Below, in pieces: positions 1,083-36,874 of a stretch of 46,575 nt of DNA (positions are counted from its first letter, which is position 1; each line of letters starts with the position of its first letter). The stretch comes from an uncultured Flavobacteriaceae bacterium (GTDB lineage Bacteria > Bacteroidota > Bacteroidia > Flavobacteriales > Flavobacteriaceae). The notes below the pieces were generated by a model, which worked only from the letters and a program-made list of their open reading frames with translations, did not search any database and was not told the origin of the DNA. The position numbers were made by a program, and so were the translations under genes. The stretch is taken from the NCBI GenBank assembly GCA_937924845.1, contig CALDUQ010000004.1, positions 1 through 46,575 on the forward strand, in the 5' to 3' direction.

Positions 1083-1461
1083 CCTGTATTGCTTTTGCAG
1101 TAGCAGCAAATTCTTCTGCCGAAAGGCTAACTTTATTGATAAATTGTGCATCTTTCATACTGTTTAACGGTATTAAGTGTACGTGCACATGAGGTACTTC
1201 AAGCCCAATAACGGTCATGCCAATACGTTTGCAATCAATTGTTTTTTCTAAAGCAAAAGCTACTTTTTTAGAAAAAGCCATTAGTTTTAGGTAAGTATCA
1301 TCACTTAAGTCAAAAATTTTGTTAACCTCTTTTTTAGGAATGCAAAGTGTGTGGCCTTTAGCGTTAGGATTAACATCCAAAAAGGCTAAAAACTCTTCGG
1401 TTTCTGCTACTTTATGACAAGGAATTTCGCCGTTTATTATTTTTGTAAAAATTGAGCTCAT
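1072..1461 (-). CDS. HIT family nucleotide-binding protein
   Basis: Small (129 aa) cytoplasmic histidine-triad protein of the Hint branch, a family that hydrolyses nucleoside phosphoramidates and related substrates. The triad HVHVHL is present (H91, H93, H95), followed by the usual IPL, and the N-terminal SIFTKIINGEIPCHKV block is typical of the branch. It lies two bases downstream of greA, so the two are almost certainly co-transcribed, an arrangement I remember as common in Flavobacteriia. Its stop overlaps the convergent histidine kinase. The physiological substrate in bacteria is not known. Confidence 0.92.
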   Translation of the reverse strand: MSSIFTKIINGEIPCHKVAETEEFLAFLDVNPNAKGHTLCIPKKEVNKIFDLSDDTYLKLMAFSKKVAFALEKTIDCKRIGMTVIGLEVPHVHVHLIPLNSMKDAQFINKVSLSAEEFAATAKAIQANL

Positions 1462-1463
1462 AG

Positions 1464-1937
1464 TTATCTTGATATTTCTATAATGTCAAATTTCATAACT
1501 CCAGTAGGCACTGTTATTTCGGCAACGTCTCCTACCGATTTCCCTAAAAGTCCTTTTCCTATAGGTGAATTTACAGATATTTTGCCCGATGATAAATCGG
1601 CCTCCCCATCGGCAACTAATGTATAGGTCATTTCCATGCCATTGGTTTGATTTTTGATTTTTACTTTTGATAACACAAGTGCTTTACTTGCATCAAGTTG
1701 AGATTCGTCAATTAATCTTGCGCCAGATAATGTGCTTTCTAGTTTCGAAATTTTAAGTTCTAATAGGCCCTGTTCTTCTTTTGCAGCATCATATTCGGCA
1801 TTTTCACTCAAATCACCTTTGTCTCTCGCTTCGGCAATTGCTTGTGATACTCTTGGGCGTTCTATGTCTTTTAAGTGACGTAATTCGTTTCTTAATTTTT
1901 TTAATCCTTCTTCTGTATAATAGGAAGCTTTACTCAT
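1464..1937 (-). CDS. greA: Transcription elongation factor GreA
   Basis: GreA enters the RNA polymerase secondary channel and stimulates cleavage of backtracked transcripts, rescuing stalled complexes. 157 aa, the normal length. The N-terminal coiled coil (about 1-75) carries the tip motif GDLSENAEYDAAKEEQG, with acidic tip residues D42 and E45 equivalent to E. coli D41 and E44. The C-terminal FKBP-like domain ends with SPIGKGLLGKSVGD. It is the first gene of a greA-hit operon; its leader has a consensus -7 box at 2040-2047 and a terminator-like hairpin at 2009-2032, suggesting control in the leader. Confidence 0.97.
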   Translation of the reverse strand: MSKASYYTEEGLKKLRNELRHLKDIERPRVSQAIAEARDKGDLSENAEYDAAKEEQGLLELKISKLESTLSGARLIDESQLDASKALVLSKVKIKNQTNGMEMTYTLVADGEADLSSGKISVNSPIGKGLLGKSVGDVAEITVPTGVMKFDIIEISR

Positions 1938-23473: not shown

Positions 23474-25912
23474 TTATTTTTTAACTAAGCTAATGATGTC
23501 ACCAAATAAGCCAGATGCTGTTACATCGGCACCGGCACCGGCACCTTTAATAATCAATGGCTGGTCGGCATATCTTTGGGTGTAAAATAATACAATATTA
23601 TCTTTTCCGTCAAGGTTATAAAAAGGGTGCGATTTATCGACTTCTTGTAAGCTAACACTTGCTTTTCCGTTTGTAAATTCGGCTACATATTTTAGTTGTG
23701 TGTTATTAGCATTTGCCGATTTGTAAATGGCATCAAAATGTGCGGTTTCTGTTTTTAAACTTTCGTAGAAATCTGGAACCGATTTAGCATCAAGACAAGT
23801 TTGAGGTAAAAAGCTATTGTTAGTAATGTCTTCTAAATTTAGTTTGTAACCGCTTTCTCTCGCTAAAATCAATATTTTTCTAGCAACATCAACACCGCTT
23901 AAATCAATACGTGGGTCGGGTTCGGTATAGCCTTCTTTTGCAGCTAGCTTAACAACGTCATAAAAACTGGTATTTGCGTTAAAGTTATTAAATATAAAAT
24001 TTAGACTACCAGATAATACGGCTTTTATAGAGGTGACTTTATCGCCCGAGTTTACTAAGTTGTGTAGTGTGCTAATTATAGGAAGTGCCGCGCCAACATT
24101 TGTTTCGAATAAATATGATGCGTTGTATTTTTTAGATAGTTCTTTATTTAGTTGGTAGTTGGCATACTCAGAGCTACACGCAATTTTGTTACAAGCAACA
24201 ACCGCAATACTTTCTTTTAGGTAATTACTGTATGTACTTGCGATATCCGCATTTGCGGTAACGTCAACAAAAACACTGTTTCTTAAATTTAAGTTTTTAA
24301 TGGTTTCAAACCAAGTGGCTTCTGTTTTTTCAACGCCATCCTTAAGCTTATTTTCCCAATCACTTAAATCAATACCACTTTCGTTAAACAACATTTTTTT
24401 AGAATTACTTAAACCAGTAATGCGCATGTCAATTAACAAATTATCTAAAATGTATTGGTGTTGTTGGTGTATTTGGTTAATTAATTTGTTGCCAACATTA
24501 CCAACACCAACAATAAATATGTTTAATGTTTGAATTTGTTGTTCAAAAAATTTAGTATGCAAAACATTTAATGCTTTTTTGGCGTCGTGGTTATCAATTA
24601 CCGCAGAGATATTTCTTTCGGAAGCCCCTTGAGCAATAGCCCTTATGTTAACGTTGTTTTCGCCTAGAGCGCTAAACATTTTGCCGCTAATTCCTTGGTG
24701 GCTTTTCATTTTTTCGCCTACTACTGCAACTATAGCTAAATTAGTTTCGATAATTGCGGGTTTAAGTTTTTGCAAGGTAATTTCGTAAGCAAAGGCTTTG
24801 TTTACTGCGTTTTCGGCAGTAATATTATCTTTAGTATCAATTGCTATACAAATCGAAAACTCTGATGAGGCTTGTGTGATTAAAATAACATTAACATTTG
24901 CGTTTGATAGTGATTCGAATAAGCGATTAGCAACACTTTTAATTGCCGATAGTCCTGTGCCTTCTAATGTTAGTAAGCTTATATTACTTAAGTGGCTAAT
25001 GCCTTTTACAGCACCTTTGTTACCTTTTGCATCGTTACTTATTAAGGTGCCATCATCATCTGGATTAAACGTGTTTTTTATCCGCATAGGGATATTGTTG
25101 TCTAATACGGGTTTTACTGATGGTGGATATAAAACACTACTGCCAAAATGTGATAGTTCCATAGCTTCATGGTATGATATGCCTTTTACAGGGAAAGCTT
25201 GTTTTACTAATTTTGGATTTGCAGTATACATACCACTTACATCAGTCCAAATTTCAAGGCTATCTGCTTTTAAAGCTCCTGCGTATATTGCTGCTGAGTA
25301 ATCAGAGCCATCTCGCCCTAAGGTTGTGGTTTCGCCGTTTTTATTTCGTGAAATAAAGCCTGGTACAATAGTGATTTGTTTTGGGTTGGCTTTAAAAAAG
25401 GTTTCAATATTAGAGTTGGTGATGTCAAAATCAACTTCTGCCTTTGTAAAAGCAGAATCAGTAACAATTAACTCTCTACTATCTTTTAATTGACAATTTA
25501 AACCTTTAGTAATTAAACTTTCTGATATTAATAGTGAGGATAGTATTTCGCCAAAACTTTGAACTTTGTCTTTTGTTTTGTCCGAAAATTCATTGAGTAA
25601 ATATATGCCTTGAAGTATTTGTTTAAGTTTTTCAAGTTTAGTATCAAGCTTTTTTAATGTATGTTCATTTAAATTTAGCTCGGAGGCTAAATTGTGATGC
25701 CTTTCGACAATAGCATTAAAAGTATCTAAATATGAGTTGTTTTTACAGTTTGCCTGCTCACCTGCATTTAAAAGCATATCTGTTGTGCCGCCCAAAGCGG
25801 AAACAATAACAACAATTGGTGTGTTTTTACTTTCTTTTTGTAGTATAGAAGTAACTTTTAAAATATTAGTTGTGTTAGATACAGATGATCCTCCAAATTT
25901 TAATACTTTCAT
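23474..25912 (-). CDS. thrA: Bifunctional aspartate kinase/homoserine dehydrogenase I
   Basis: 812-aa fusion catalysing the first and third steps from aspartate to threonine. The N-terminal aspartokinase begins MKVLKFGGSSV and has TTLGRDGSDYSA; two ACT domains (about 310-460) carry feedback control, usually by threonine. The homoserine dehydrogenase half has the Rossmann motif IFIVGVGNVGN near 464 and the catalytic block KEGYTEPDPRIDLSGVDVARK near 655-675. First gene of thrABC, 26 bases after the terminator hairpin of an attenuator, so its transcription is controlled by Thr and Ile supply. Confidence 0.96.
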   Translation of the reverse strand: MKVLKFGGSSVSNTTNILKVTSILQKESKNTPIVVIVSALGGTTDMLLNAGEQANCKNNSYLDTFNAIVERHHNLASELNLNEHTLKKLDTKLEKLKQILQGIYLLNEFSDKTKDKVQSFGEILSSLLISESLITKGLNCQLKDSRELIVTDSAFTKAEVDFDITNSNIETFFKANPKQITIVPGFISRNKNGETTTLGRDGSDYSAAIYAGALKADSLEIWTDVSGMYTANPKLVKQAFPVKGISYHEAMELSHFGSSVLYPPSVKPVLDNNIPMRIKNTFNPDDDGTLISNDAKGNKGAVKGISHLSNISLLTLEGTGLSAIKSVANRLFESLSNANVNVILITQASSEFSICIAIDTKDNITAENAVNKAFAYEITLQKLKPAIIETNLAIVAVVGEKMKSHQGISGKMFSALGENNVNIRAIAQGASERNISAVIDNHDAKKALNVLHTKFFEQQIQTLNIFIVGVGNVGNKLINQIHQQHQYILDNLLIDMRITGLSNSKKMLFNESGIDLSDWENKLKDGVEKTEATWFETIKNLNLRNSVFVDVTANADIASTYSNYLKESIAVVACNKIACSSEYANYQLNKELSKKYNASYLFETNVGAALPIISTLHNLVNSGDKVTSIKAVLSGSLNFIFNNFNANTSFYDVVKLAAKEGYTEPDPRIDLSGVDVARKILILARESGYKLNLEDITNNSFLPQTCLDAKSVPDFYESLKTETAHFDAIYKSANANNTQLKYVAEFTNGKASVSLQEVDKSHPFYNLDGKDNIVLFYTQRYADQPLIIKGAGAGADVTASGLFGDIISLVKK

Positions 25913-25938
25913 GAGTTTGTTTTTTTAATTTTTATAAT

Positions 25939-25970
25939 AAAAAAAACCTTCCTGTTTATCAGGAAGGTTT
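25939..25970 (-). terminator. Attenuator terminator of the thr operon
   Basis: Arms 25944-25954 and 25960-25970 (AAACCTTCCTG / CAGGAAGGTTT) form a perfect 11-bp stem with a 5-base loop. On the minus strand eight U residues follow (25939-25946). It lies between the leader peptide and thrA. Confidence 0.9.
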
Positions 25971-26000
25971 TATATGTGTGCAACACTACTAAACCTTCCT
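25961..26000 (-). promoter_or_regulatory. Antiterminator of the thr attenuator
   Basis: The segment at 25991-26000 (AGGAAGGTTT on the minus strand) repeats the terminator's 3' arm and can pair with AAACCTTCCT at 25961-25970, which is the terminator's 5' arm. The two hairpins exclude each other. The leader-peptide stop codon (25999-26001) overlaps the first antiterminator arm, so a ribosome that finishes the leader covers it and lets the terminator form; a ribosome stalled earlier at Thr or Ile codons leaves it free. Confidence 0.85.
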
Positions 26001-26046
26001 AGGGTATAGATGTAATAATTGTTGATATGATATTTGTTATATTCAT
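25999..26046 (-). CDS. thrL: thr operon leader peptide
   Basis: A 15-codon ORF, MNITNIISTIITSIP, followed by TAG. Nine of fifteen residues are Thr (3, all ACA) or Ile (6), the same two amino acids sensed by E. coli thrL, though the sequence itself is unrelated. Its stop codon sits in the antiterminator arm, and an attenuator terminator then thrA follow. This arrangement shows that the ORF senses charged tRNA-Thr and tRNA-Ile by ribosome stalling. A -7 box TAATTTTG lies 35 bases upstream of its ATG. Confidence 0.88.
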   Translation of the reverse strand: MNITNIISTIITSIP

Positions 26047-26080
26047 TTATAAGCAAATGTTGTAAAATATATTGATTTGA

Positions 26081-26088
26081 CAAAATTA
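26081..26088 (-). promoter_or_regulatory. Promoter -7 box of the thr leader
   Basis: Minus strand TAATTTTG matches TAnnTTTG. The start site would be near 26073-26075, about 28 nt before the leader ATG. No -33 TTG seen, so read-through from ilvA may also feed the operon. Confidence 0.4.
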
Positions 26089-26161
26089 ATAAATGATTTA
26101 TTTTTATTTAGTTAAAGTTTTGTGATATTGTTGCTTTATGGTCTTTTTTGTTGAATAATTG

Positions 26162-27427
26162 TTAAACTAAAAATTGATATAATTCGGGTTTGTCGTTTAA
26201 GTAATCACCATAAAAGCTAAACTGTTTCATGCGTTCAATAAGTGGTTCGAGATCGGCAACATTTTTAAGTTCAATACCAACAACGGCAGCACCATTTTCG
26301 CGGTTTGTTTTCTTTGTGTATTCAAAATGTGTAATATCATCTGTAGGGCCTAAAATATTTACAACAAATTCTCTTAAAGCTCCAGCACGTTGCGGAAATT
26401 TAATAATAAAATAATGCTTAAGATTTGAGTAAAGCAGGGCTCGTTCTTTAATTTCGGCTGTACGCGTAATATCGTTATTGCTACCACTAATGACGCAAAC
26501 TACGTTTTTCCCTTTTATTTCTTCCGAAAATTGTTCTAAAGCGCACAGGCTAAGTGCACCAGCAGGCTCAACTACTATGGCGTCTTTATTGTAGAGCTCT
26601 AATATAGTTTGGCAAACATGACCTTCGTCTATTTCAACCACACGATGTAAGGTTTCTTTGCAAATTGCAAAATTTAAATCGCCAACGCGTTTAACTGCTG
26701 CGCCATCAACAAAATTTGTGATAGTTTCTAGGGTTGTGTTTTTATTATTTCTAATTGATGTTAACATTGAGGCCGCTCCTTTGGGTTCAACGCTAATGAT
26801 TTTAGTTTGTGGAGAAAGCATTTTAAAAACAGATGACAAACCTGCAGCTAAGCCTCCGCCTCCAACAGGTACAAAAACATAATGTATAGGGTGTTTTTGC
26901 GCTTGGTCTATGATTTCTAAACCAACAGTTGCTTGTCCTTCAATGATTTTTTCGTCATTAAACGGGTGTATAAAGGTTTTGTTTGATGCTTTTGATTCCG
27001 CCATAGCGGCATGATAAGCATCATCAAACGTATCGCCAGTTAATACCACATTTACGTAGTTTTCGCCAAACATTTTTACTTGTTCAATTTTTTGATTTGG
27101 TGTTGGCGAAGGCATGTAAATGGTGCCTTTTATTTTTAAAAGTTTACACGATAACGCAAAGCCTTGAGCATGGTTACCTGCACTAGCACAAACAATTTTA
27201 TTCTCTATTTGAGTTGAACTTAACGATGAAATTTTGTTATAAGCGCCTCTTATTTTATAAGAACGAACTTCTTGCAAGTCTTCTCGTTTAAAATAAATAT
27301 CGGCCTCATACTTTTTAGAGTATCGAGAGCTTTTAATTAATGGTGTCACATTAGCGATGCCAATTAGTTTTTCGGCAGCAGCTTCGATGGCATCTAGAGT
27401 AGGGCGATAGGTTGTTGTTTTTTGCAT
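26162..27427 (-). CDS. ilvA: Threonine deaminase (threonine ammonia-lyase), biosynthetic
   Basis: 421-aa PLP enzyme making 2-oxobutyrate from threonine, the entry to isoleucine. PLP lysine K58 in VRSYKIRGAYNK, the phosphate-binding glycine loop PVGGGGLAAG, and SGSNND are present. The C-terminal domain (about 330-421, KFPQRAGALREFV) is a single ACT-like regulatory domain, shorter than the E. coli two-domain form (514 aa) and like the Corynebacterium type, so isoleucine feedback is expected but unproven. It is the last gene of the ilv block, separated from ilvC by a terminator-like hairpin, and lies directly before the thr attenuator. Confidence 0.94.
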   Translation of the reverse strand: MQKTTTYRPTLDAIEAAAEKLIGIANVTPLIKSSRYSKKYEADIYFKREDLQEVRSYKIRGAYNKISSLSSTQIENKIVCASAGNHAQGFALSCKLLKIKGTIYMPSPTPNQKIEQVKMFGENYVNVVLTGDTFDDAYHAAMAESKASNKTFIHPFNDEKIIEGQATVGLEIIDQAQKHPIHYVFVPVGGGGLAAGLSSVFKMLSPQTKIISVEPKGAASMLTSIRNNKNTTLETITNFVDGAAVKRVGDLNFAICKETLHRVVEIDEGHVCQTILELYNKDAIVVEPAGALSLCALEQFSEEIKGKNVVCVISGSNNDITRTAEIKERALLYSNLKHYFIIKFPQRAGALREFVVNILGPTDDITHFEYTKKTNRENGAAVVGIELKNVADLEPLIERMKQFSFYGDYLNDKPELYQFLV

Positions 27428-27436
27428 TTGTGATTA

Positions 27437-27479
27437 TGAGAAAAAAAACTCTAGCTTTTTTTGTTTAAGCTAGAGTTTT
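27437..27479 (-). terminator. Terminator-like hairpin between ilvC and ilvA
   Basis: Arms 27445-27457 and 27467-27479 (AAAACTCTAGCTT and its complement) form a perfect 13-bp stem with a 9-base loop. On the minus strand the stem is followed by eight U residues (27441-27448), and ilvA starts only 14 bases beyond. Expected effect: lower or separately controlled ilvA expression. Confidence 0.8.
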
Positions 27480-27491
27480 AGATGATAAGTG

Positions 27492-28997
27492 TTATGCAAA
27501 AGCTTCTTCTGTAGTTCGGCTTACATTTTCAGTTTTTATTTCTTTCATAGCGGTCATAGATGCTCTTAAACGTTTACCAACAGCTTCAATAGGGTGGTTA
27601 CGTATAGCGTCGTTTACAGCTATTAATTCGGCATTATCGGTTGCTTCTGTTGGGTAAGCATTTCCTATTATAGTTGTTTCTACGGTTTTCATAAAATCTT
27701 GCAATAAAGGTTTGCAAGCATGGTCAAATAGATAACAGCCGTATTCTGCCGTATCAGAAATTACACGATTCATTTCAAATAATTTTTTTCTGGCAATAGT
27801 GTTTGCAATTAAAGGAAGTTCATGTAACGACTCGTAATACGCAGAGTCTTCAATAATACCGGCGCTAACCATTGTTTCGAAAGCTAACTCAACCCCAGAT
27901 TTTACAAAAGCGACCAATAAAACACCATTGTCAAAATACTCTTGCTCGGCAATATGCTGATCTGTCAAAGCAGTTTTTTCGAAGGCTGTTTCGCCAGTTG
28001 CGGCACGCCATTTTAATAAGTTAGCATCATTATTAGCCCAATCTTCCATCATTGTTTTTGAAAAGTGACCAGATATGATGTCGTCCATATGTTTTTCGAA
28101 TAACGGACGCATAATAGTTTTTAAATCTTCGGATATTTTAAAGGCTTTAATTTTTGCGCTATTTGATAAGCGATCCATCATATTGGTAATACCGCCATGT
28201 TTTAAAGCCTCGGTAATGGTTTCCCAACCAAATTGAATAAGTTTTGCAGCATAACTAGCATCAATACCTTCGTTAACCATTTTGTCAAACGATAAAATTG
28301 CGCCTGTTTGTAATAATCCACAAAGTATTGTTTGTTCGCCCATTAAATCACTTTTTACTTCGGCAATAAATGACGATTCTAGCACACCTGCTTTATGACC
28401 GCCTGTTGCTACAGCATAGGCTTTAGCTTGCGCCCAACCTTTATTTTCTGGATCGTTTTCAGGGTGTACTGCAATAAGAGTAGGTACTCCAAAACCTCTT
28501 TTGTATTCTTCTCTAACCTCTGTGCCAGGGCATTTAGGCGCTACCATGATTACTGTAATATCTTCACGAATTTTTGTGCCTTCTTCAACAATATTAAAAC
28601 CATGTGAGTAGCTTAATGTAGCTCCTTTTTTCATTAAAGGCATTACGCTTTTAACTACATTGGTATGTTGTTTATCGGGTGTTAAGTTAAGCACTACATC
28701 TGCATTTGGTATTAAATCTTGATAAGTACCAACTGTAAAGTTGTTTGATGTTGCGTTTTTGTATGATGCGCGTTGTTCATCAATAGCAACTTGCCTTAGC
28801 GCGTATGAAATATTTAACCCCGAGTCTCTCATATTTAAACCTTGATTAAGTCCTTGAGCTCCGCAACCAATTATTACTATGTTTTTGTTTTCTAGGGCGC
28901 TAACACCTTCGTTAAATTCTGATGAATCCATAAAGCGGCATTTTCCTAGTTGATCTAATTGTGTTCTTAAAGGTAGTGTGTTAAAATAATTTGACAT
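27492..28997 (-). CDS. ilvC: Ketol-acid reductoisomerase, class II
   Basis: 501-aa enzyme that rearranges and reduces acetolactate (or acetohydroxybutyrate) with NADPH and Mg2+, in valine and isoleucine synthesis. The N-terminal Rossmann domain has [19 protein letters not shown] (G44, G46, G49) and basic residues in ISYALR that suit NADPH. The length and duplicated C-terminal knotted domain mark it as the long class II form found in E. coli and plants. It follows ilvN by 13 bases. Confidence 0.96.
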
Positions 28998-29010
28998 TTT
29001 AATAATTGTT

Positions 29011-29541
29011 TTAGTAGTTAAATGTTTTTAGCATTTTTGATATTTCCATGGGTTGTTTGGTAATTGAAATTCGGCCTGAGCGAATAAATTGTAATATACC
29101 AAATGCACTTAATTCGCGATGTAATAGTTCTATTTCTTTACGACGGCCAGATTTTTCGAGTACAAAAAATGCTTTGTTTACGGTTACAATTCGGGCATTG
29201 CTATCCTTAATTATGTTCTGGATTTTGCGCTCGTCAAAAAGTAAATCAGATTTGATTTTAAATAAACATGACTCTTGGTAAATAGTTTCTTCGTCGGTGT
29301 GGTAAAAGGCTTTAATGACCTCGACTTGTTTTTCTATTTGACCTATTATTTTTTTCATTTGTTCTTCTGAAAGAAGCACAACAATAGTCCATCTTGATAC
29401 GCCATCAATTTCTGATGCTGATGCGTTTAAGCTTTCTATATTTATGTGTCTTCTTTGAAAAATTGCCGAAATTCGGTTTAGTAAACCTAATGTGTTTTCG
29501 GTGTAGATAGAAATTGTATATGTTGTTTTTTCTGTACTCAT
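29011..29541 (-). CDS. ilvN: Acetolactate synthase, small (regulatory) subunit
   Basis: 176-aa regulatory partner of IlvB. An N-terminal ACT domain, [21 protein letters not shown] with [11 protein letters not shown] (about 8-80), binds valine for feedback; a second small domain completes it ([22 protein letters not shown]). It lies two bases after ilvB. Length is close to the usual 160-180. Standard subunit with nothing odd. Confidence 0.94.
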
Positions 29542-29543
29542 AA

Positions 29544-31280
29544 TTAACTTAATCTAATTTCTGAAACTGAAGCTCCTGTTGGTATCATAGGAAAAACATT
29601 GTCTTCTTTCTCTACGCATACTTCAAGAAAATAAGCGCCTTCGCTTTGCATCATTTCTTTTACAGCGTTGCTTAAATTTTCGCGTTTTGTTACTTTTTTC
29701 GCATCAATTGAATAGCCTTTAGCAATGGCAATAAAATCGGGGTTAACCATTTCGGTACTTGCATAGCGTTTGTCAAAAAATAGTTGCTGCCATTGGCGTA
29801 CCATGCCTAAAAACTCATTGTTTAAAACAACAATTTTTACTGGTACTTGCTGTTGTAAAATGGTGCCTAACTCTTGAATATTCATTTGATAGCCACCGTC
29901 GCCAATTATTGCAACAACATCTCTATTAGGTGCTGCCATTTTTGCGCCAATAGCTGCTGGCAAAGCAAAACCCATGGTGCCAAGACCGCCAGATGTAATG
30001 TTACTTTTTGATTTGTTAAATTCCGCATAGCGGCATGCAATCATTTGGTGTTGCCCAACATCACTAACGATTGCAGCATTGCCTTTAGATTGTATGTTTA
30101 TTTCTTTTAAAACTTCACCCATTGTTAGGCCGTCCTTTGTGGGGTGAATGTCGTTTTTTACAACTTTGTTATATTCAATATCATAAAGTGCTTTAAACTC
30201 ATTGTGCCAATTTGTATGCGTGTTTTTATTAAGCAGCGGTAGTAATTGCTCTAAGCTCTGTTTGGCATCGCCCAAAATAGCAACATCTGTTTTTACGTTT
30301 TTATCAACTTCGGCAGGGTCAATTTCAAAATGAACAATTTTTGCTTGTTTTGCATAGCGTGATAAATCGCCCGTTACACGATCGTCAAATCGCATCCCAA
30401 TAGCTATTAAGACATCACACTCATTGGTTAGTTTATTAGGTGCATAATTACCATGCATGCCAACCATACCTACATTTAAAGGGTGTGATGTTGGTATTGC
30501 AGAAGCGCCTAAGATGGTCCATGCTGATGGAATTCCTGATTTTTCAATTACTGCCTTAAATTGTTCTTCGGCTTTGCCTAGAATAACCCCTTGTCCCCAT
30601 ACAATTAGAGGTTTTTTTGCCTTGTTTATTAAATCGGCCGCAGCAATTAAAGCGTCATTGTTTACCTTGGGCACCGGATTGTAGCTGCGTATGCCTTTAC
30701 ATGTGTTGTATGAAAAATCAAATGTGTTTAATTGGGCATCTTTAGTAATATCAATTAACACTGGGCCTGGGCGACCACTTTTTGCAATATAAAATGCTTT
30801 GGCTATAACTTTTGGTATATCTTCAGCTTTTGTAACTTGACAGTTCCATTTGGTTACTGGTGTTGATATGCCTACAATATCGGTTTCTTGAAAAGCATCA
30901 CTACCAAGTAAGTGCGAAAATACCTGACCTGTTATGCAAACTAATGGTGTTGAATCTATTTGAGCATCGGCAATACCTGTGATTAAATTGGTTGCGCCAG
31001 GGCCTGATGTAGCCATAGCAACACCAACTTTGCCCGATATACGCGCATAGCCTTGTGCGGCATGTGTTGCGCCTTGTTCGTGCCTAGTTAACACGTGATG
31101 TATTTTACCTTGATACTTATATAGCTCGTCATAAACAGGCATTATTGCGCCGCCAGGATAGCCATAAAGTGTATCAACACCTTCTTCAATTAAACAACGT
31201 ACAATGGCTTCGCTTCCAGAAATATGGTTTGATACATTGTTGTTAGTTTGTTGTTGATTTATAGTTTGTGGGTCTTTCAT
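29544..31280 (-). CDS. ilvB: Acetolactate synthase, large (catalytic) subunit
   Basis: 578-aa thiamine-diphosphate enzyme joining pyruvate to pyruvate or to 2-oxobutyrate, the first shared step of valine and isoleucine synthesis. Seen: GYPGGAIMPVYDEL, catalytic E68 in TRHEQGATHAAQGYAR, the FAD-domain region, and the ThDP motif GDGGYQMNIQELGTILQQ ending in VVLNN (about 460-490). In order after ilvD (41-base gap) and before ilvN (2-base gap). The catalytic subunit is complete. Confidence 0.96.
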   Translation of the reverse strand: MKDPQTINQQQTNNNVSNHISGSEAIVRCLIEEGVDTLYGYPGGAIMPVYDELYKYQGKIHHVLTRHEQGATHAAQGYARISGKVGVAMATSGPGATNLITGIADAQIDSTPLVCITGQVFSHLLGSDAFQETDIVGISTPVTKWNCQVTKAEDIPKVIAKAFYIAKSGRPGPVLIDITKDAQLNTFDFSYNTCKGIRSYNPVPKVNNDALIAAADLINKAKKPLIVWGQGVILGKAEEQFKAVIEKSGIPSAWTILGASAIPTSHPLNVGMVGMHGNYAPNKLTNECDVLIAIGMRFDDRVTGDLSRYAKQAKIVHFEIDPAEVDKNVKTDVAILGDAKQSLEQLLPLLNKNTHTNWHNEFKALYDIEYNKVVKNDIHPTKDGLTMGEVLKEINIQSKGNAAIVSDVGQHQMIACRYAEFNKSKSNITSGGLGTMGFALPAAIGAKMAAPNRDVVAIIGDGGYQMNIQELGTILQQQVPVKIVVLNNEFLGMVRQWQQLFFDKRYASTEMVNPDFIAIAKGYSIDAKKVTKRENLSNAVKEMMQSEGAYFLEVCVEKEDNVFPMIPTGASVSEIRLS

Positions 31281-31321
31281 TGTTTATTAAAAGTTTGAGA
31301 AACGATAAAGTCTGTTTGTTT

Positions 31322-33001
31322 TTAAAATTCATCTGTAACACAGCCTTTTGATGCTGGCGATACAGTTTTTGCATATTTGTATAAAACTCCTCTTTTAAAT
31401 TTTAACGCCGGAGCTTTCCAATTTTCTTTTCTTTTTGCTAGTTCTTGATCGGTGATATCTACAGTAATAGTGTTGGTTACTGCATCAATAATAATGGTGT
31501 CGCCATTTTTAACAAGTGCAATTGCACCTCCATCTTGAGCTTCGGGGGTGATGTGGCCAACCACAAAACCATGCGTTCCTCCAGAAAAACGACCATCTGT
31601 AATCAAGGCAACATCTTTGCCTAAACCAGCACCCATAATTGCTGCGGTTGGTTTTAGCATTTCGGGCATGCCAGGGCCGCCTTTAGGGCCTTCGTACCTA
31701 ATTACAACAACATCACCTTTTTCTACTTTACCATCTCTAATGCCGTCATTAGCATCATACTCACCATTAAATACTTTGGCTTTTCCTTTAAAAGTTAAGC
31801 CTTCTTTACCAGTAATTTTGGCAACACTACCTTCGGTTGCTAAATTGCCATAAAGCATACGTAAATGTCCTGTTGTTTTTATAGGTGCTTCTATGGGTTT
31901 TATAACATCTTGGTCTTGACTTAAGTCGTTAACGTCAAGTAAATTTTCGGCAAGTGTTTTTCCTGTAACGGTTAAGCAATCACCATGTAGTAGGCCTTTT
32001 TTTAACAAATATTTTAATACCGCTGGAATACCGCCAACGCGATGTACATCTTCCATTAAGTATTTTCCGCTAGGCTTTAAGTCGGCTAAAAATGGTGTGT
32101 TGTCACTAATTTCTTGAAAGTCTTTTAAGGTGAAATCAATTTGAGCAGCTCTAGCAATGGCTAAAAAGTGTAAAACGGCATTGGTTGATCCTCCCAAAAT
32201 GGTTACTAGTCGTACAGCGTTTTCAATAGATTTTCTAGTAATAATATCCGACGGTTTGATGTCTTTTTCTAGTAGTAATTTAATAGCTTCACCAGCACGT
32301 ACAGATTCATTTTTTTTAGCATCGCTTAGCGCAGGATTTGATGAGTTGTAAGGTAAAGCCATACCAAGTGCTTCAATCGAAGATGCCATAGTGTTAGCTG
32401 TATACATACCGCCACAGGCGCCAGCACCAGGGCAAGCTTTTTCTACAATGTTTTGATATTCATTTTCAGACATTTTACCTGAAACTTTACTGCCCCATGC
32501 TTCAAAAGCCGAAACTACATCAAGTTTTTGTCCGTTATGGCAGCCAGAATCTATAGTGCCTCCGTAAACTAAAATTGATGGCCTATTTAAACGAATCATG
32601 GCAATTAATGCACCAGGCATATTTTTGTCACAACCTACTACGGTTATTAGCCCATCGTAGCTCATGGCTTGCACAACGGTTTCCATCGAGTCGGCAATAA
32701 TATCTCGTGATGGTAATGAGTAACGCATTCCTGGTGTACCCATCGATATGCCGTCACTAACACCTATGGTGTTAAAAATCAAGCCAATTACATCTTCGTT
32801 TAAAGTGCCTTTTTTTACAAGTTTAGCAAGGTCATTAAGGTGCATGTTGCAAGGATTACCTTCGTAACCTGTACTAGCAATACCTACAATTGGTTTTGTA
32901 AAATCTTCGGTAGTTAAGCCAATAGCGTGCAACATTGCCTGTGCCGCAGGTTGTGTAGGATCTTGAGTAACGGTTTTGCTATATTTATTTAATTTATTCA
33001 T
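31322..33001 (-). CDS. ilvD: Dihydroxy-acid dehydratase
   Basis: 559-aa Fe-S dehydratase converting dihydroxy acids to the keto acids of valine and isoleucine. Three conserved cysteines, C51, C124 (GCDKNMPG) and C196 ([16 protein letters not shown]), mark the [2Fe-2S] type. The C-terminal block [21 protein letters not shown] is standard. First structural gene of ilvDBNCA; a 33-codon ORF ends five bases before its ATG and may be a leader. Confidence 0.96.
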
Positions 33002-33231: not shown

Positions 33232-33266
33232 TTTGGCAGTTAAATTTAATAATTACTGTATTTTTG
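33232..33266 (+). promoter_or_regulatory. Promoter of metK
   Basis: TTTG (33232-33235), a 23-base spacer and TATTTTTG (33259-33266) fit the Bacteroidota -33/-7 pattern. The start site is predicted near 33273, which places the whole structured leader inside the transcript. The palindrome at 33216-33228 adjoins the -33 element. Confidence 0.5.
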
Positions 33267-33283
33267 CCCTTTAATAATGAGGA

Positions 33284-33413
33284 TAAATTTGACTGATTGC
33301 AACCTCTTGCACTAATTATAAGTGTACCTGTTTTAAATAACAGATTCTGATTTTTGTTTTTCAGAATAAAAATGCTAAAGGCAGTAAGTTTAGTGCGTTG
33401 CTTTCGTCAAATT
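33284..33413 (+). ncRNA. Structured metK leader, SAM-II-like riboswitch candidate
   Basis: Upstream of SAM synthetase. The 5' part has CTGATT (33293-33298), AACC (33301-33304) and TTGCA (33307-33311) in the order and near-spacing of the SAM-II aptamer; the 3' part has AATAAAAATGCTAAAGG (33365-33381) like its conserved tail. Pseudoknot pairs are possible: CCT 33303-33305 with AGG 33379-33381, and GCA 33309-33311 with TGC 33373-33375. The loop is enlarged by two hairpins (33328-33343, 33344-33367), unlike the short proteobacterial form. Downstream, 33390-33413 is complementary to the aptamer's 5' side in three blocks (7, 5 and 8 bp). Class assignment is from memory of SAM-II and its long-loop relatives. 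Confidence 0.6.
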
Positions 33414-33436
33414 ATGTTCAAAAATGATATAAATTT

Positions 33437-35112: not shown

Positions 35113-36330
35113 ATGAAAAAAACAGTGTTAGCAGTTATTGCTTTCAGTGCGGCGCTAGCCGTGAATGCACAACAGAAAGAAAACAATGAAATTACCTATC
35201 GCAGGAGTTCGTTACACACAATGCTTATTGAGACGGATGACTTTCCTAGAAAAGATGTAGTCCTATCAGCTTACGACAATGCGCCTTTTCCAGAAAAATA
35301 TAACGACCACTCCATAAAAACTAGGTCTTTTAAGGTTGATTTACCTAAAAAAGATTCGGAAGAAGCAGATGCCACAGAAATAATTAATAGTTATTTAAGT
35401 AAAAACAAAATTGGCAATCAATTAGTAGCTAAATGGTTTAATAGGCAAACTAACGGTTCGTTTAATATGAATTTAATTGGTGAAAGAGGGTCTTATAATG
35501 CCTCTGAAATGCAAGCAAACATAGCCAAAGGTTCTGTAAGAGGTGTGTCATCTTTAGCAGATGCAGGCGAAGAGTTAATAAACAATACGTTTGTGGTAGT
35601 AAATCAATTAAACTTTGTAAGTAATGAAATAGCCGCTAATGTTATAAGAGAGGCTGCTATTAGTAAAGCAAACGAAATAAACATGTCCTTTGCTAGAAAA
35701 GCAGCTATAAAACTTGCAGATAAGGCATATGATAAAGCAAAAGAAGGTTATTCAGTTTGGACAACCGCTTATTTGTACCAATTGGTTTGGAATGAAGAAG
35801 TAGCAGCTATATTTTATAATGACCTTTGGGTAGACAATACAAGTATTAATAGTACTAAAGTCGAAAAGTTTGATACTACCGATATATTTAAAATGAAGTT
35901 TATAGGTAAGCAAAAAGCAAAAAGTTTAGTGTTGTTTTCTTTAAAAGAAAAACGCACTGAAGCACAAATTATAGAGTTAGCCACTATTAGAAACTTAGAC
36001 GCCGTATATGCAAAATTGCAAAAAGAGTATGATGTGTTTAAAACAAAGACGCCTTTGTATAGCGGACAGCCTATTACTGCAAAAATAGGGATGAAAGAAG
36101 GTTTAGTAGGCGGCGAATCTTTTGAGGTTTTAGAGCAATTGTTAGATGAAGATACAGGTTTGACAAAATATGTTAGAAAAGGAAAAATTAGTGTGTCCAA
36201 AGGTGAAGTTTGGGATAATAGATACAATGCTGGTGATGTAATTGATGATAAAAAAAATAGTAATACTGTAACTACTTTTAAAGGAGGTAAAAACTATTAT
36301 TCAGGAATGCTAATTCGACAATTAAAATAG
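35113..36330 (+). CDS. Secreted protein of unknown function, operon gene 1
   Basis: 405 aa with a type I signal peptide, MKKTVLAVIAFSAALAVNA, cut before QQ; no lipobox. The N-terminal part (20-110) contains an ITYRRSSLHTMLIE segment and a SYLSKNKIGNQLVAKWFNR block; the middle (130-260) is alanine-rich and helical with AISKANEINMSFARKAAIKLADKAYDKAKEGYS as landmark AIKLADKAYDKA; the C-terminal 90 residues are strand-rich (GQPITAKIGMKEGLVGGESFEVL, GKISVSKGEVWDNRYNAGD), looking like a small beta-barrel. I remember similar conserved proteins in Bacteroides and Flavobacteriia but no function. First of four tandem genes with gaps of 10, 14 and 8 bases. Confidence 0.85.
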   Translation: MKKTVLAVIAFSAALAVNAQQKENNEITYRRSSLHTMLIETDDFPRKDVVLSAYDNAPFPEKYNDHSIKTRSFKVDLPKKDSEEADATEIINSYLSKNKIGNQLVAKWFNRQTNGSFNMNLIGERGSYNASEMQANIAKGSVRGVSSLADAGEELINNTFVVVNQLNFVSNEIAANVIREAAISKANEINMSFARKAAIKLADKAYDKAKEGYSVWTTAYLYQLVWNEEVAAIFYNDLWVDNTSINSTKVEKFDTTDIFKMKFIGKQKAKSLVLFSLKEKRTEAQIIELATIRNLDAVYAKLQKEYDVFKTKTPLYSGQPITAKIGMKEGLVGGESFEVLEQLLDEDTGLTKYVRKGKISVSKGEVWDNRYNAGDVIDDKKNSNTVTTFKGGKNYYSGMLIRQLK

Positions 36331-36340
36331 AAAAAAAATC

Positions 36341-36874
36341 ATGAAAAATCATATAAATACTATAGTACTCTTGTTTTTAGTTGTTTTTACATTTTCTTTA
36401 AATGTAGATGCGCAAAGCAAACGTGAAAGTAAAAAAACTAAAGATGCACATGAATGGCGTTATGAGCTAGATTGTATGAGTACAGGAAAACAAGGAACGT
36501 ACTTAGTTAAAGTTTGGTCATATTCTAAAAAACCACAATTGGCTATCGAAAAAGCTAAAAGAAATGCCGTACACGGAGTTATATTTAAAGGTTTTGCAGC
36601 AGGTAAACAAGGCTGTAAATCACAAAAACCGTTAGCTAGAAACTCTAATCTAGAAAGTGAACAATCCAGTTATTTTAAAACATTTTTTGGTGAAGGTGGC
36701 AAGTATATGAAATTTGTTACGGCGTCTAATGATGGTGCAATTGCCGCAGGAGATCGATTAAAAGTAAGTAAAAAAATGTACAAAATAGGGATTGTAATCT
36801 CTGTAAATAAAGACGAGCTTAGAAAAACACTTGAACAGGACGGAATCATCAAAGGATTAGCGTCTGGATTTTAA
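36341..36874 (+). CDS. Secreted protein of unknown function, operon gene 2
   Basis: 177 aa with signal peptide cut after NVDA. The core starts with a strand-like WRYELDCMSTGKQGTYLVKVWSYSK, then a helix QLAIEKAKRNAVHGVIFKGF, then a C-terminal YKIGIVISVNKDELRKTLEQDGIIKGL. The order strand, AxxxAxxxAv helix, strand resembles FlgT/LpoB-type accessory domains that lie beside outer-membrane machines; this is a weak analogy. Three cysteines (in LDCMS, GCKS and none near the end) allow at most one disulfide. Not recognised as a named family. Ten bases after gene 1. Confidence 0.8.
   Translation: MKNHINTIVLLFLVVFTFSLNVDAQSKRESKKTKDAHEWRYELDCMSTGKQGTYLVKVWSYSKKPQLAIEKAKRNAVHGVIFKGFAAGKQGCKSQKPLARNSNLESEQSSYFKTFFGEGGKYMKFVTASNDGAIAAGDRLKVSKKMYKIGIVISVNKDELRKTLEQDGIIKGLASGF

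Follow-up and report, generated by a model that had tools for sequence, protein, structure and literature searches.

A SAM-II long-loop riboswitch candidate of metK and its conserved anti-aptamer strand in Flavobacteriales

SAM-II riboswitches (RF00521) are known from Alphaproteobacteria, and a structure is available for that of metX. In this class, the P2 pseudoknot may contain the ribosome-binding site (PMC10907184), or the control may alternatively be transcriptional, as described for most SAM-II riboswitches (PMC6061858). SAM-V has a related pseudoknot, with a SAM site nearly superimposable with that of SAM-II (PMC6061858). A further member of this family of sensors, SAM-II long loops (RF01726), was named by Weinberg et al. 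in 2010, in a table entry that assigns it to Bacteroidetes and to marine sequences, and the main text of that work describes no anti-aptamer strand (PMC2864571).

Here we describe the leader of metK in a stretch of 46,575 nucleotides from an uncultured Flavobacteriaceae bacterium (contig CALDUQ010000004.1), referred to as the window. With a probability of about 0.82, we regard this locus as a metK riboswitch of the SAM-II long-loop class (RF01726) that has a conserved anti-aptamer strand and would bind SAM. It shares with RF00521 the H-type pseudoknot and the block order CTGATT, AACC, TTGCA and GCTAAA. However, its 3' strand lies more than 50 nt upstream of the start codon, in a phylum whose mRNAs lack Shine-Dalgarno sequences and where translation responds to structure and to upstream adenines (PMC6847099). 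SAM-V is translational and masks the Shine-Dalgarno sequence; the window gives no match to it in Rfam scans.

The SAM-II long-loop aptamer and its setting

A first-pass annotation of the window had placed a SAM-II-like aptamer in front of a SAM synthetase gene. Both parts are supported: the gene is metK, with all three S-AdoMet_synt domains matched in Pfam, and RF01726 is matched with the aptamer blocks exactly where they had been located (Table 1). This match was obtained with cmscan when the leader was scanned permissively against Rfam, in a 499-base search where all other matches were at chance level. Even though the full model is covered, the 38.7 bits fall under the Rfam gathering cut-off of 44, which explains why the scan of the whole window at gathering scores returned no matches. 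The score is lowered because the model must absorb a hairpin insert of 66 nt; relatives with spans of 100-117 nt reach 44-50 bits, and L060, whose span of 117 nt equals that of the window, reaches 44.9 bits.

The likeness to RF01726 encompasses P1, the core ATTTGACTGATTGCAACC, the 3' strand AAAATGCTAAA..CAG and the site before metK. In its core, the window agrees in every letter with the Bacteroidetes long-loop consensus AUUUGACUGAUUGCAACC, and P1 (GAGG:CCTC) and AUUUGACUGAUUGCAACCUC are the same as in the RF01726 consensus. There are two differences: the window carries AAAGGCAG instead of AAAGCAG, as many relatives do, and its insert is far longer than the usual 9-10 nt found in many of them, although inserts of 20-80 nt are present in many Flavobacteriaceae. 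The element is most probably a member of the known long-loop class at its usual gene. Of 296 genomes from this order, 202 carry RF01726, as do 38 of 247 sampled genomes of the wider phylum.

The comparisons below were made on 246 distinct leaders (the window and 245 relatives), drawn from the order with a few from outside. P1 appears in them as GAGG:CCTC, GTGG:CCAC or AGGG:CCCT. Both parts of the P2 pseudoknot, formed between the 5' core and the 3' strand, are present in the window and show compensatory changes in relatives: CTG:CAG is replaced by CCG:CGG (L246) and CAG:CTG (L127), and GCA:TGC gives way, with the pairing kept, to GCT:GGC (four leaders: L232, L248, L249 and L253), GCG:CGC (L123) and GCT:AGC (L099). 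The insert, where two extra hairpins had been proposed, is predicted to fold into three short ones, and the inserts of the relatives fold on themselves far better than shuffled sequences (median z -4.0).

Table 1. Features of the metK leader in the window (positions counted from the first letter of the window)
Feature	Position	Strand	Basis or remark
TTG, candidate -33 promoter element	33233..33235	+	23 nt upstream of -7 box; tentative
Bacteroidetes -7 box (TAnnTTTG), here TATTTTTG	33259..33266	+	motif conserved upstream of aptamer
SAM-II long-loop aptamer match, RF01726	33273..33389	+	38.7 bits, E 6.4e-6, model 1-60 of 60
P1 5' strand, GAGG	33279..33282	+	pairs with 33303-33306 in RF01726
AATTTGAC, target of anti-aptamer block 1	33286..33293	+	invariant ATTTG core; flanks co-vary with tail
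CTG, pseudoknot helix, partner CAG 33382-33384	33293..33295	+	CTG:CAG in 211/246 leaders
GCA, pseudoknot helix, partner TGC 33373-33375	33299..33301	+	GCA:TGC in 225/246 leaders
GCAAC, target of anti-aptamer block 2	33299..33303	+	sequence
P1 3' strand, CCTC	33303..33306	+	RF01726 alignment
Insert hairpin 1, TGCACT/AGTGTA	33308..33326	+	predicted fold; overlaps the block 3 target of the first-pass annotation
Insert hairpin 2, CTGTT/AACAG	33328..33343	+	predicted fold
Insert hairpin 3, ATTCTGA/TCAGAAT	33344..33367	+	predicted fold
Aptamer 3' strand AAATGCTAAAGGCAG, pseudoknot and predicted SAM pocket side	33370..33384	+	RF01726 alignment; conserved in relatives
TTTAG, can pair with CTAAA 33375-33379, removing pseudoknot 3' strand	33389..33393	+	minimum-energy fold
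TTAGTGC, block 3, pairs with GCACTAA 33309-33315	33390..33396	+	pairs exist; unsupported in relatives
GTTGC, anti-aptamer block 2	33397..33401	+	sequence; used in minimum-energy fold
GTCAAATT, anti-aptamer block 1	33406..33413	+	GTCAAA enriched in tails; co-variation
metK, S-adenosylmethionine synthetase, 417 aa	33437..34690	+	Pfam PF00438, PF02772, PF02773

The element lies in the 5' leader of a SAM-related gene, the metK start being 47 nt past the end of the RF01726 match. Just upstream of the aptamer, TAnnTTTG is found in 186 of the 190 leaders with enough upstream sequence, against 14.4 expected from shuffles. Since the Bacteroidetes -7 box occupies positions -12 to -5 (PMC6847099, PMC9723704), transcription would start near 33271, a few bases 5' of P1, and the metK leader would span 33271-33436, approximately 166 nt. 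The TTG further upstream is listed tentatively, because the -33 element is weakly conserved.

Divergent from metK, on the minus strand (23474-33001), lies a row of branched-chain and aspartate-family amino acid genes: ilvD, an ilvB-like gene, a small ORF, ilvC, an ilvA-like threonine dehydratase gene and a bifunctional aspartokinase-homoserine dehydrogenase gene. Downstream of metK, two adjacent ORFs (35113-36330 and 36341-36874) have signal-peptide-like N-termini and no Pfam match. In one relative (L027), a SAM-I riboswitch (S-box, RF00162, 85.9 bits; 1335-1434, minus strand) stands back to back with the metK SAM-II long loop (1501-1559, plus strand), so that a single intergenic region holds a SAM sensor on each strand, the two being unrelated.

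The anti-aptamer strand in the window and its relatives

Between the aptamer and metK, the tail of the leader can pair with the aptamer 5' side in three blocks, as the first-pass annotation had put forward. All 20 of these pairs are Watson-Crick: 33286-33293 with 33406-33413 (8 pairs), 33299-33303 with 33397-33401 (5) and 33309-33315 with 33390-33396 (7). With folding energies that leave out the pseudoknot and SAM, the duplex of aptamer 5' side and tail reaches -28.9 kcal/mol, against -13.3 +/- 3.0 for dinucleotide-shuffled tails, of which 1 in 5000 is as low. It had also been proposed that this strand uses bases needed by the pseudoknot, which holds for C33293 and for the GCA at 33299-33301, but not for block 3, whose partner belongs to the insert and not to the aptamer core.

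The complementarity is a property of the group. Across the 246 leaders, that between tail and aptamer 5' strand has a median z of -2.6 against shuffles, with 71% below -2, whereas the coding control (the start of the coding region at these loci, n=203) gives a median of +0.27 and 0% below -2; about 30% of leaders have no individually significant complement. Own tails outperform swapped tails by a mean of 2.1 kcal/mol, a value reached in 0 of 5000 permutations, also within the aptamer class, although such permutation values overstate independence because many leaders share ancestry. GTCAAA is present in 84 tails, against 5.0 expected, and of 181 leaders folded as a free ensemble, 86% show more than five pairs between aptamer and tail.

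The tail also changes together with the aptamer. Leaders with TTTGAC aptamers (n=122) have GTCAA in 87 tails and GCCAA in 2, whereas those with TTTGGC aptamers (n=40) have GCCAA in 26 and GTCAA in none. When tails are anchored on CAAAT, the partner of the invariant ATTTG, their flanks pair at 4.07 of 5 positions in register and at 1.3-1.9 when slid by 1-3 bases; no covariation with the tail was found at the third base before ATTTG. The pairing is AATTTGAC with GTCAAATT in the window and GATTTGAC with GTCAAATC in most relatives, and one leader with its own variant TTGGTC (L135) carries GCAATCTGACCAAATTATTC, 20 nt that are almost perfectly complementary to its core. Judged by eye rather than from a tree, the change from A:U to G:C may have as few as about three origins by family (f11; L229 and L237 of f7; L135 of f1). 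The joint absence of a model score and of covariation in the helix had been named as what would speak against the first reading; a score and covariation were both obtained, and this check did not refute it. The result is an alternative helix on aptamer bases, conserved with covariation, as expected of an anti-aptamer expression platform, and the sequences support a conserved anti-aptamer strand in the metK leaders of Flavobacteriales. No description of it was found in the literature, supplementary files aside, and an earlier one may exist; the strand is real and group-wide, and apparently undescribed.

In most Flavobacteriaceae leaders of the TTTGAC class, L036, L043 and L066 included, GACGNNNN usually precedes the anti-aptamer GTCAAATC, and a small GACG/CGTC hairpin could form there and compete for the same bases; it is absent in the window. 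A second subgroup (L045, L050 and other members of genus g2; L078, L091, L135) has an aptamer core one base longer, TTGNNC, and tails with TTTAGC, GCAATC and AAATTTTTCCTC, which aim at other aptamer parts, namely GCTAAA, GATTGC and GAGGAAAAATTT.

The blocks differ in how far the relatives back them. Block 1 is the best-backed and is strongly supported by sequence comparison. Block 2 is partly supported; in relatives, GCAAT or GCAATC against GATTGC is commoner (66 vs 14 and 28 vs 3 expected, respectively). Block 3, which had been counted as part of the switch, is unsupported, since its partner is the non-conserved insert; in relatives, this part of the tail pairs with the 3' strand of the pseudoknot instead. 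An exact three-block switch, with the tail selected to pair with 33286-33293, 33299-33303 and the insert at 33309-33315, would account for the complete Watson-Crick pairing and for a joint duplex rare among shuffles, but we consider it improbable: no pairing of insert and tail is seen in 92 relatives with long inserts (median z +0.25; the window itself has z -1.9), and the minimum-energy fold leaves block 3 out. Block 3 is rejected as a general feature. Both insert hairpin 1 and CTAAA:TTTAG stand in competition with it, and the minimum-energy fold of the window uses the latter instead (33389-33393 with 33375-33379), together with GTTGC. TTTAG, the complement of CTAAA in the pseudoknot 3' strand, occurs in 78 tails against 29.7 expected; being both enriched and part of the predicted fold, it suggests that the conserved design removes both pseudoknot strands.

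The first-pass annotation had further tied the switch to the enlarged loop, and had taken short SAM-II RNAs to lack an off/on switch. Neither idea is supported: complementarity is nearly as strong in the 150 short-insert leaders (median z -2.43) as in the 96 long-insert ones (-2.78), and published work describes most SAM-II riboswitches as transcriptional (PMC6061858). Since short-insert leaders carry the anti-aptamer too, the switch does not arise from the enlarged loop; the two-state switch is probably real in this group and not special to this locus.

Less probable still than the three-block switch is a SAM-II long-loop aptamer whose tail is conserved on other grounds, for instance as a protein-binding site or as the remnant of a duplication, and has no switching role. 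GTCAAATC is indeed conserved as a sequence in many Flavobacteriaceae, often after GACGNNNN; however, in other families the tail changes along with the aptamer variant, and other subgroups aim at other aptamer parts (ATTTTTCCTC, GCAATC). A chance resemblance to SAM-II with no riboswitch at all, for which the score below the gathering cut-off might speak, is refuted in practice by the relatives; E 6e-6 in the 499-base search, the site before metK and an element present in most of the order all speak against it.

Proposed switching and routes of output

Under the reading favoured here, P1 and the P2 pseudoknot would close round SAM when it is plentiful, leaving the tail strand 33389-33413 free. 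When SAM is scarce, the tail would pair with the aptamer (GTCAAATT:AATTTGAC, GTTGC:GCAAC, and TTTAG:CTAAA of the 3' strand), blocking the pseudoknot. On paper, the two states exclude each other, since the anti-aptamer helix uses C33293, 33299-33301 and C33303 of P2 and P1. As the gene encodes the SAM synthetase, metK expression would be expected to fall in the SAM-bound state. The sequences show the aptamer match, the promoter signal and the covariation of pseudoknot and anti-aptamer; we infer SAM binding, mutual exclusion in the cell and this sign of control.

How the switch would reach the gene was approached through the tails and the start region. No intrinsic terminator was found: none of 181 tails combines a hairpin of -6 kcal/mol or lower with a U5 run following it. 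The translational SAM-II/SAM-V type, with a masked ribosome site, was not borne out either: holding the aptamer has no systematic effect on the start codon, the unpaired fraction from -25 to +15 being 0.554 free and 0.566 held, and the start region becomes less accessible in only 44% of the modelled leaders. In the window, the modelled fraction goes from 0.49 free to 0.38 held.

Our first guess, held at somewhat under even odds, is a transcriptional effect without an intrinsic terminator, such as the action of Rho on the freed tail. In the tails of the relatives, C is frequent and G is scarce (19% and 9%), contrary to the tail of the window (5 C, 8 G); the Rho site is only a guess, because the C bias may follow from pairing with the purine-rich aptamer strand. 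An effect on translation start is a possibility to which we give about one chance in three. It is rather doubtful that the SAM-II long loops of Flavobacteriales combine a covarying anti-aptamer with neither a terminator nor masking of the ribosome-binding site, and so follow an output route new for SAM-II. To our knowledge, the means by which riboswitches control genes in Bacteroidetes, where Shine-Dalgarno sequences are absent, have been little clarified. If true, this proposal would add a SAM-II output route in a phylum without such sequences, and the covarying alternative helix in more than 100 metK leaders provides definite base pairs to mutate, which makes the question testable, for example in Flavobacterium johnsoniae.
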